This document shows positions 6,470 to 8,980 of a stretch of 64,000 nucleotides of DNA, piece by piece. Origin of the DNA: Armatimonadota bacterium (GTDB lineage Bacteria; Armatimonadota; Zipacnadia; Zipacnadales; JABUFB01); the NCBI GenBank assembly GCA_013314775.1, contig JABUFB010000011.1, positions 259,144-323,143 of the forward strand, written 5' to 3'. A program made the translations under genes and the position numbers. The notes beneath the pieces are model-generated. The model made no database searches and had not been told where the DNA came from. It worked only from the letters and a program-made list of their open reading frames with translations. Position 1 is the first letter of the stretch; each line of letters starts with the position of its first letter.

Positions 6470-7501
6470 CTACAGGTTGACGGGCTGTCCGATCTCGGCC
6501 GATTCCACCATTGCCGCCAGGGCTTTCGTGATCATCAGCCCGTCGTGGCCGGTGATGAGCGGCTCTTCATCCCGCAAAAGGCAGTTGACAAAATGCACCA
6601 GCGCGTCGTACACGAACCCCCGCGGCTCACCCGCAACTTCTCCGGAAAGAAACCCCGGCGTCTTCATCTGTGCCGGCGTGGCCACCGTGTGCACTGGCAT
6701 GTTCGGGTCCACGTTCACATACCCTGCGGTGCAAATGAGTTGGAACTTGCTGTCTACGATGTTGGGCATCGACTCAGGTAGAATCCAGCACGACTCGAAA
6801 TTGCCCACGCAGCCGTTCTCGAACTCCACGGTGGCCTGGTAGAAGTCGGGCGTGTCGATCCCCATCCCCTTGAGTACCTGCGAACGGCAGACCGCGAACA
6901 CCCGCTTCGCCTCACTCCTGAAGTACCACCGGGCGATGTCATACCGGTGACAGATGAGCCAGAAAGGCAGGCGCGTTGAACCGGACCACGACAGCATCTT
7001 CGTGGGCACATAGAGGGTGTTGTTCAGGCGTGCATAGGCGTACAGCGGTTCGCCCAGTTCGCCGCGGTCCAGCATTTCCTTGGTGGACCAGAACAACGGC
7101 TGCCAGCGATTACTCCAGTTGATCATCAGCCGCTTGCCTGACGCCCGCCAGGCGTCCACCATGGCCTGCGCGTCCTCAACCGAAGTCGCCATGGGCTTCT
7201 CCAGCAGCACATGCTTGCCCGCCTGCAATGCGGCGACAGTGGATTCCCGGTGCAGGTGATCGGGCAGGGCGATGGAAACGGCGTCGATGGAGTCATCCTC
7301 CAGCAACGCACTCCAATCGGTGAGCGCGTGTCGGGCGCCGTACTTGAGGGCAGTGGCTCGCGCCCGGTTCTCGTCAACATCGCAGACGGAGACCAGCTCG
7401 GCATTGGGCAAGGATGCCACGATCTTCACGTGCGATTCGCCCTGAATGCCGCACCCGATGACCCCGTACCTGATCCTGCCTGGCGCAAATCCGCGTGACA
7501 T
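6470..7501 (-). CDS. Gfo/Idh/MocA-family NAD(P)-dependent oxidoreductase
   Basis: Sugar or inositol dehydrogenase-like enzyme, 343 residues from the ATG at 7501. The N-terminal Rossmann fold shows GVIGCGIQG and the conserved VCDVD; the family catalytic motif EKP is in LLEKPMA. The C-terminal half is the usual alpha/beta substrate domain. A longer frame runs to 7636, but AAAGGG stands about 9 nt before the ATG at 7501 and the protein then begins right at the Rossmann strand, so I chose this start. The substrate is unknown. Such genes are expanded in glycan-degrading bacteria. The gene diverges from miaB across a 168-nt region containing inverted repeats. Confidence 0.87.
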   Translation of the reverse strand: MSRGFAPGRIRYGVIGCGIQGESHVKIVASLPNAELVSVCDVDENRARATALKYGARHALTDWSALLEDDSIDAVSIALPDHLHRESTVAALQAGKHVLLEKPMATSVEDAQAMVDAWRASGKRLMINWSNRWQPLFWSTKEMLDRGELGEPLYAYARLNNTLYVPTKMLSWSGSTRLPFWLICHRYDIARWYFRSEAKRVFAVCRSQVLKGMGIDTPDFYQATVEFENGCVGNFESCWILPESMPNIVDSKFQLICTAGYVNVDPNMPVHTVATPAQMKTPGFLSGEVAGEPRGFVYDALVHFVNCLLRDEEPLITGHDGLMITKALAAMVESAEIGQPVNL

Positions 7502-7597
7502 GACGATCACCCTTTCGAAGAGAGACAGAGCCCTCGAGCCGCTGGCCCCGGCGCGGCCTACAGGCGCGGGCCCACGCGAGGCGCCACATGAGATAAG

Positions 7598-7654
7598 ACA
7601 GTTCCCTGGAGGCCCACCGGTTCCCTCCAGCGTCACAGGCAGTTAGGGAACTGT
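7598..7654. repeat. operator-like inverted repeats between divergent genes
   Basis: ACAGTTCCCT at 7598-7607 is matched by its perfect reverse complement AGGGAACTGT at 7645-7654. A third GTTCCCT copy lies at 7620-7626. Nested inside, CTGGAGG (7606-7612) pairs with CCTCCAG (7624-7630). The right arm abuts the miaB -10 box, so a bound regulator could block that promoter and perhaps also the divergent oxidoreductase promoter. Confidence 0.55.
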
Positions 7655-7656
7655 GT

Positions 7657-7662
7657 TATAAT
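7657..7662 (+). promoter_or_regulatory. miaB -10 box, probably giving a leaderless mRNA
   Basis: A consensus TATAAT ends only 7 nt before the miaB ATG at 7670. Transcription normally starts 6-8 nt after the -10 box, which would place the first transcribed base at or next to the ATG. No Shine-Dalgarno sequence lies at a usable distance. A -35 box is weak (GTCACA around 7632). Confidence 0.55.
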
Positions 7663-7669
7663 CGCGCCC

Positions 7670-8980
7670 ATGCAGAACACGTACTTCATCGAAACCATGG
7701 GCTGTCAGATGAACGAGCGCGATTCGGAGACCATCGCCGGCGTGCTCGAATCCCTGGGCTTGCACGCCGTGGATTCTCCGGCGGATGCCCGCGTCATCGT
7801 GCTGAACACCTGTGCGGTGCGGGAGAAGCCCGTCCACAAGGTCTTCTCGCGCCTTGGAGACCTCCGGCGGCAGAAACGCGAGAACCCGGGGACTATCATC
7901 GTGGTCGCCGGTTGCGTGGCGCAGACCTCGCAGAACGAACTCCGGACGCGTGCGCCTTTCGTTGATCTGATCCTCGGGCCAAGGAGCATCGCCGGGCTCG
8001 CGGAAGCCGTGCGCGAAGCCTCCGGCCAGCAACGGGTCCTGGCGGATGATGCGGAGATTATCCCCGAAGGTTTGCCTTTCACGCGCGCCGAAAGCGTGAA
8101 TGCCTTCGTGAATGTGGGCTACGGCTGTGATAATTTCTGCGCCTACTGCATCGTGCCGTTCGCCCGTGGCCGTGAGCAGAGTCGAGCGCCTGAGGACGTG
8201 GTTGCGGAGGTGGCCGACGCGGTGGGTTCCGGGCGGCCGGAGGTGACCCTCCTGGGGCAGAACGTGAATAGTTACCGGGGGTGCGCTGCGACCGGACAGA
8301 CCGTGAGTTTTCCCGAACTGCTGCGCCTCGTGGACGCGGTGGACGGCCTGCGCCGTCTGCGCTTCACGACCTCACATCCGAAGGACCTCTCCCCCGCCTT
8401 GCTCCAGGCGATGGCCGAACTACCCACCGTCTGCGAGCACCTGCACCTGCCCATCCAGTCCGGGGACGATGAGGTACTCGAGCGCATGGGAAGGGGATAC
8501 ACGCTAGCGCACTATCTCGAGATCGTGCACCAGGCGCGGGAGCTGATCCCCGGTATAGCGCTCACCACCGATGTGATGGTGGGCTTCCCGGGTGAGACCC
8601 CGGAGCAGTTCGAACGCACTCTGTCGGCCTTTGAAGAGATCCGCTACGATCAGGCCTTCATGTTCATGTACAACGATCGGCCCGGCACGCGCGCGGCCGG
8701 CTTCCCCGACAAGGTGGACGAGGGGGTGAAGCTGGAGCGACTGCAACGGCTGGTAGAACTGCAGAACGTGATCAGCCGAGCGAAGAACGAGCAAGAACTG
8801 GGGCGCATCGTCGAGGTGCTGGTGGAGGGACCAGACGACAAGTCACCCGGCTACCTTCGCGGGCGTACGCGGACCAACAAGCTCGTGATCTTCCCGTCGC
8901 CGGCAATTCCCGCCGGGAGCTTCGTCAACGTCCTGACCCGCGAGGCATTCCTCTGGGGTTTCAAGGGCGAGCCCGCCTGA
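7670..8980 (+). CDS. miaB: tRNA-2-methylthio-N6-dimethylallyladenosine synthase MiaB
   Basis: Radical-SAM methylthiotransferase that converts i6A37 to ms2i6A37 in tRNAs reading UNN codons. Length, 436 residues, is normal. The N-terminal UPF0004 domain carries the three auxiliary-cluster cysteines (in MGCQMN, NTCAVRE and AGCVAQ). The radical-SAM CxxxCxxC is in GCDNFCAYC, and a TRAM RNA-binding domain ends the protein. FIETMGCQMNERDSE near the start distinguishes MiaB from MtaB and RimO. The ATG at 7670 is needed for the first beta strand, although it has no ribosome binding site. The gene is convergent with the HD-GYP gene. Confidence 0.95.
   Translation: MQNTYFIETMGCQMNERDSETIAGVLESLGLHAVDSPADARVIVLNTCAVREKPVHKVFSRLGDLRRQKRENPGTIIVVAGCVAQTSQNELRTRAPFVDLILGPRSIAGLAEAVREASGQQRVLADDAEIIPEGLPFTRAESVNAFVNVGYGCDNFCAYCIVPFARGREQSRAPEDVVAEVADAVGSGRPEVTLLGQNVNSYRGCAATGQTVSFPELLRLVDAVDGLRRLRFTTSHPKDLSPALLQAMAELPTVCEHLHLPIQSGDDEVLERMGRGYTLAHYLEIVHQARELIPGIALTTDVMVGFPGETPEQFERTLSAFEEIRYDQAFMFMYNDRPGTRAAGFPDKVDEGVKLERLQRLVELQNVISRAKNEQELGRIVEVLVEGPDDKSPGYLRGRTRTNKLVIFPSPAIPAGSFVNVLTREAFLWGFKGEPA

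Follow-up and report, generated by a model that had tools for sequence, protein, structure and literature searches.

The miaB locus and its upstream DNA

The window, which is the whole stretch of 64,000 nucleotides that was analysed, comes from a genome of 6.1 Mb in 37 contigs that belongs to the phylum Armatimonadota and its class Zipacnadia, a class described in PMC10290634. A forward-strand open reading frame at positions 7670–8980 starts with the ATG at 7670 and encodes 436 amino acids. It is identified as miaB, the gene for tRNA (N6-isopentenyladenosine(37)-C2)-methylthiotransferase, by its match to the NCBIfam model TIGR01574 (478 bits against a cut-off of 355), and the N-terminus of the product aligns with the orthologues. 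The intergenic region upstream of miaB is common to a divergent gene on the minus strand (6470–7501), a Gfo/Idh-type oxidoreductase gene that encodes 343 amino acids from an ATG at 7501 with AAAGGG ahead of it. Profile models of the Gfo/Idh type match this gene, all of them below their own cut-offs. Gfo/Idh is the divergent neighbour of miaB at 12 loci of the order: the window, the loci of a relative from the same genus (genome G001, locus L005) and of one from the same family (G002, L088), and nine more. The divergent pair spans 6470–8980 in the window and is conserved at these 12 loci.

The TATAAT that the initial annotation had placed 7 nt ahead of the miaB start is read directly from the sequence, at 7657–7662 against an ATG at 7670. 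TG precedes the hexamer, and the element is therefore of the TGnTATAAT type, an extended −10 element, TGTTATAAT, at 7654–7662 of the forward strand. The discriminator CGCGCCC (7663–7669) lies between this element and the ATG. In leaderless genes the −10 element ends about 5–9 nt before the start codon, and miaB in the window, with 7 nt, fits this geometry; a transcription start at or beside A7670 is predicted. No Shine-Dalgarno-like motif was found before this ATG. A promoter scan of the DNA upstream of miaB in the window gave no full sigma-70 match, and the best −35 candidate is GTCACA, which matches at 4/6 positions with a spacer of 19. An ECF-type −35 (GGAAC) was weighed by eye and set aside, as no second element to go with it was found.

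The same DNA contains a perfect 10-bp inverted repeat, ACAGTTCCCT (7598–7607) and AGGGAACTGT (7645–7654), with 37 nt between the arms. The repeat finder extends the arms to 15 nt each (forward-strand positions 7593–7607 and 7645–7659), with 93% complementarity and 14/15 positions paired, and the right arm then overlaps the −10 element. The left arm has the core AGTTCCC at 7600–7606 and the right arm has the core GGGAACT at 7646–7652. A third GTTCCCT is found at 7620–7626 as a direct copy, 19 bp past the first copy, and the repeat finder also reports a nested pair at 7606–7630, CTGGAGG (7606–7612) and CCTCCAG (7624–7630). The 10-bp repeat, the third copy and the nested pair had all been described before this analysis, and each of them is present where it had been placed.

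The inverted and direct half-sites before miaB exceed chance. When the 90 nt that precede the miaB ATG were shuffled, 10 perfect pairs were obtained in 0/600 trials and 14/15 pairs also in 0/600; with the whole intergenic region of 165 nt, the counts were 6/600 and 0/600. A sample of 178 noncoding upstream regions of 90 nt from the same genome, miaB's among them, gave three with 10 perfect pairs and one, that of miaB, with 14/15, where the number of regions is approximate because the gene caller was a crude script of our own. The heptamer GTTCCCT is unenriched in the window (7 copies observed, 5.6 expected). The signal is the clustering, with three of the seven copies inside 51 bp.

The miaB start across the order

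The order is represented by 41 genomes, and the DNA upstream of miaB could be read in 32 of them. Those left out are G003, which has no orthologue but only a 37% paralogue, G004, where the gene is cut by a contig edge, and G021, G023, G025, G028, G030, G035 and G037, which are without a full-length orthologue. Also left out were locus L087, which equals the window, and L001–L004, which duplicate L088, L106, L107 and L112. The same was done with L299 (G038:C79:18650–19400), a second full-length miaB of G038 with 61% identity to the miaB of the window and with TGATATACT 13 nt before its ATG.

A TATAMT hexamer (TATAAT or TATACT) is found upstream of miaB in 31/32 order genomes, and it is preceded by TG in 29. 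In 26 of the 32, the −10 element is followed after 6–12 nt by an in-frame miaB start (ATG or GTG), where gaps of 10–12 nt would give a leader of a few nucleotides. L103 belongs to this group on the condition that translation begins at its upstream GTG, as the gap to its ATG is 24 nt. A Shine-Dalgarno-like motif before the start was found in none of the 25 genomes that were scanned among these 26. Five order genomes have a longer gap of 18–33 nt, and in this group a Shine-Dalgarno-like motif is found in L092, L108 and L109 and none in L113 and L114. In the remaining locus, L102, there is no such −10 element within the 54 nt available upstream of miaB.

The −35 region was also compared. TTG is found at −35, with a spacer of 16–19 nt, in 24 of the 31 miaB promoters of the order, where 1.46 would be expected from shuffling, and this marks them as real promoters. 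The promoters that lack this TTG include those of the window, L005 and L088, all members of family f1. Four order genomes outside this family (L091, L110, L112 and L116) are also without the −35 TTG and without the repeat.

The leaderless layout does not seem to be a general habit of the genomes of this order, as far as a crude census goes. The census took in 464 kb of the window's genome plus 400 kb from relatives, and TATANT lies 5–12 nt before a candidate start in 3/430 non-miaB genes with noncoding upstream DNA, again an approximate count from the same gene caller. Two other genes were followed through the order as comparators, and the leaderless-type layout was found at RelA/SpoT in 5/30 order genomes and at Pth in 0/30. 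Pth, often part of an operon, is a weak comparator. RelA/SpoT was chosen because the sample of the own genome had two leaderless-type genes besides miaB and it was one of them. In that RelA/SpoT-type gene (L175:2067–4226; G000:C1:22067–24226), which is transcribed away from an mnmA-like frame, 6 nt separate TATACT from the ATG. Across the order the RelA/SpoT signal is intermittent, unlike that at miaB. Outside the order, a −10-like hexamer lies 6–12 nt before the miaB start in 2/19 other Armatimonadota genomes (L225 and L234; the count took in G041–G050 and G052–G060 and left out G051). With a looser motif, 10/69 miaB loci, mostly from other phyla, were positive, and 6 of the 75 loci in that set were skipped.

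The cross-genome comparison supports the suggestion of the initial annotation that the miaB mRNA probably begins at its start codon. The TGnTATAMT element at 6–12 nt in 26/32 genomes, together with the missing Shine-Dalgarno-like motif in the 25 scanned, makes it well supported that the promoter is leaderless and that the predicted mRNA is leaderless or nearly so. The spacing between TATAAT and ATG in the window is accounted for by a leaderless promoter, and no special device is required. The leaderless miaB start would appear to be an old and widespread trait of the order, and it is the more interesting half of the finding.

Candidate half-sites of the genus and their possible role

The repeat has a different distribution. 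Between the window and its same-genus relative (L005), the cores AGTTCCC, GTTCCCT and GGGAACT are identical at 21/21 bases and 8/9 bases of the extended −10 are kept, while the rest of a 72-nt stretch, less the extended −10, matches at 26/42 (Fisher p = 0.0006 against the cores); this test is one pair of same-genus genomes, and the blocks were picked after the repeat had been seen. The spacings between the half-sites, 19 and 26 bp, are unchanged in the alignment, and the third GTTCCCT is the same at the same spacing in L005, inside GGTTCCCTCCAGC. In both arms the outer 5–8 bp, for example 7593–7599 on the left, differ in L005, and the nested CTGGAGG/CCTCCAG stem is missing one base pair there. 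It is these unconserved outer stretches that give the repeat its long look in the window. No such repeat was seen in G002, of the same family, or in the other order genomes when the printed upstream sequences were inspected by eye. A palindrome at the matching place of the G002 promoter (L001/L088) was considered and set aside, as it was within chance (374/1000 shuffles).

A check of the arms in relatives, proposed earlier, has a mixed outcome. The 7-bp cores and their spacing are kept in L005, but the outer arms have diverged and the repeat is absent beyond the genus. The same is true of the operator-like character that had been given to the repeats: the core sites behave as if selected between two species of one genus, but they are not general to miaB and are absent outside the genus. 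The inverted repeat appears to be a young, genus-level addition, and half-sites for a putative DNA-binding protein are the best reading of its three conserved cores. An operator before miaB is plausible, local and unproven.

The explanation that we favour, with moderate confidence, is a leaderless extended −10 promoter of order ancestry to which the genus has added half-sites for a putative regulator that would replace the −35 contact or block the promoter. A housekeeping sigma-70-type polymerase would transcribe miaB from the extended −10 element, the transcript would start at or within about 1 nt of the ATG, and the leaderless mRNA would be translated without a Shine-Dalgarno sequence, an arrangement probably inherited from the order ancestor. 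The −35 TTG would have been lost in the window's family. Three RGTTCCC half-sites (two direct and one inverted, with 19 and 26 bp spacing) would have arisen in the genus between −70 and −18, and they appear to occupy the place where the −35 contact is missing. The proximal half-site lies in the promoter spacer and abuts the extended −10 element on its upstream side. A putative protein bound at the half-sites could either take the place of the −35 contact or block the promoter, and it may control the divergent Gfo/Idh gene too. The regulation may go in either direction, as the proximal half-site points to repression and the missing −35 to activation, and the sequence is compatible with both. 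Points against this explanation are the divergence of the outer arms, the lack of a second full arrangement among the genomic places inspected, the RNA folds predicted in both species, and the four order genomes outside the family that lack the −35 TTG yet have no repeat.

One alternative, which we consider unlikely, is that only the leaderless promoter matters: no regulator would be involved, and the inverted repeat would have arisen by chance or be in decay. Outside the genus the promoter is found without the repeat, the outer arms have diverged between the window and L005, and a regulon search gave none. Against it, the cores are identical and their spacing unchanged where the other bases have diverged (21/21 against 26/42), and the repeat is beyond what shuffling gives and, at 14/15 pairs, beyond the 177 other upstream regions.

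The search for a regulon, in which GTTCCCT pairs were to be sought through the genome, was run with several patterns. GTTCCC N10-45 GGGAAC has 28 forward places in the own genome against 11 for the reversed control, with two at miaB. Fifteen of the 26 non-miaB places were inspected as loci, and none resembles another promoter of the miaB type; at each of the 15 there is an overlapping stop-to-stop frame of 100 codons or more. GGGAAC N2-8 TATAMT has five places against two in the control, one of them miaB, and GTTCCC N13 GTTCCC has three places, one at miaB. A DNA similarity search with the repeat region gave no second copy (best other E value 0.13), and the GTTCCC/GGGAAC pair pattern is also matched in G001, G002 and G003. 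No regulon emerged, with the full arrangement at no second locus among the places inspected, and the case for a known type of regulator is weaker for it.

Two other places in the own genome have features of their own. L135:1501–1516 (G000:C15:25892–25907), one of the four non-miaB places of the GGGAAC N2-8 TATAMT pattern, has a single GGGAAC followed after 4 nt by TATACT and then by an SD-like GGGG; it is possibly another promoter, with one half-site of the miaB type, and no second half-site was found in the 200 nt examined. At L120:1440–1640 (G000:C2 near 179876) the minus strand has a frame that by eye resembles mreB and that seems to have a long leader, in which 36 nt separate GTTCCC from GGGAACTG. 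There GGGAACTG overlaps the region just before the mreB-like ATG, and a promoter-like pair, TTGACG/TACAAT, lies upstream.

It could also be proposed that the half-sites belong to the Gfo/Idh gene, with one arm beside each of two divergent promoters and miaB affected by proximity only. The intergenic region is common to both genes, and the half-sites may therefore serve Gfo/Idh; the region is shared in this way at the 12 order loci with this divergent neighbour. The left arm is followed on the minus strand by AT-rich sequence in both species, and AATACT there is a 5/6 match in L005. In the window, however, the left arm has no minus-strand −10 matching at 4/6 or better, so that a divergent promoter there would be weak, and the repeat is absent from most loci with the same Gfo/Idh–miaB pair. 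We find this assignment doubtful. An RNA element, in which a longer transcript from upstream would give miaB a leader where the arms pair into a stem-loop, is most improbable in spite of strong predicted folds (window z −3.5, 0/200 shuffles as good; L005 z −2.6, 1/200), since the right (3′) arm overlaps the order-wide extended −10 and the main transcript would start downstream of it, the scan found no promoter upstream of the arms, Rfam has no match for the repeat region, the inner RNA structure differs between the window and L005, and conservation extends to the third GTTCCC copy, which the hairpin can do without.

The initial annotation had named a DNA-looping or dual-site repressor, and neither form is supported. 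The arms are 37 nt apart, about 45 bp from centre to centre, and known repressor loops are as a rule longer than this, which makes looping unlikely. A dual-site arrangement of full arms of 10–15 bp is not supported either, as only 7 bp per arm are kept in L005 and each core amounts to one 7-bp half-site.

Relation to known leaderless genes and operators

What might keep one gene leaderless? A very tentative suggestion is that selection keeps miaB leaderless across an otherwise leadered Armatimonadota order, with this Fe-S enzyme made through a separate initiation route, and that the genus has added a dedicated regulator. If true, MiaB could be made, for instance, during a shortage of initiation factors or of free 30S subunits. 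Should the 5′ ends be confirmed, miaB would be a natural case for studying why a gene stays leaderless, with the relatives that have gaps of 18–33 nt as a built-in comparison, and the GTTCCC sites would offer a case in which the takeover of a promoter by a regulator, after the loss of its −35, can be tested.

Dyad operators that overlap sigma-70 promoters are a general class. Like them, the miaB half-sites are repeated, overlap the core promoter and keep their spacing between two species. Unlike compact dyad operators, the miaB arms are 37 nt apart, there is a third direct copy, and no regulon was found. Control of miaB expression has a precedent in Staphylococcus aureus, where miaB is controlled by the small RNA IsrR (PMC11448259); there the regulation is post-transcriptional, whereas the candidate in the window consists of promoter sites.

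The leaderless start can be compared with two described systems. Zheng et al. (2011; PMC3160421) reported bacterial leaderless genes in which a TANNNT (−10) signal precedes the start by about 12 bp, and miaB has the same geometry, with a −10 element, here with TG, directly before the start and no Shine-Dalgarno motif. The phyla named in the relevant passages of PMC3160421 do not include Armatimonadota. In the full-text literature searched, on leaderless genes in Armatimonadetes and on leaderless mRNA with miaB tRNA modification, no report of an order-wide leaderless miaB was found. Leaderless genes are usually seen as a genome-wide habit of certain phyla, and this geometry is such a phylum-wide habit in the systems of PMC3160421 and PMC12340547; here the trait is centred on one housekeeping gene in an uncultured order, where it spans at least six families and shows little trace at other genes of the sampled DNA. 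In Deinococcus-Thermus, leaderless expression is driven by a −10 motif adjoining open reading frames and is stronger with a −35 element, and the motif is found at about 30% of open reading frames on average (PMC12340547). The miaB promoters share this −10 next to the reading frame, and those relatives that carry the −35 TTG would fit the strengthening described for that system. The difference is one of frequency, as a layout found at about 30% of open reading frames there (PMC12340547) is found at 3/430 non-miaB genes here.
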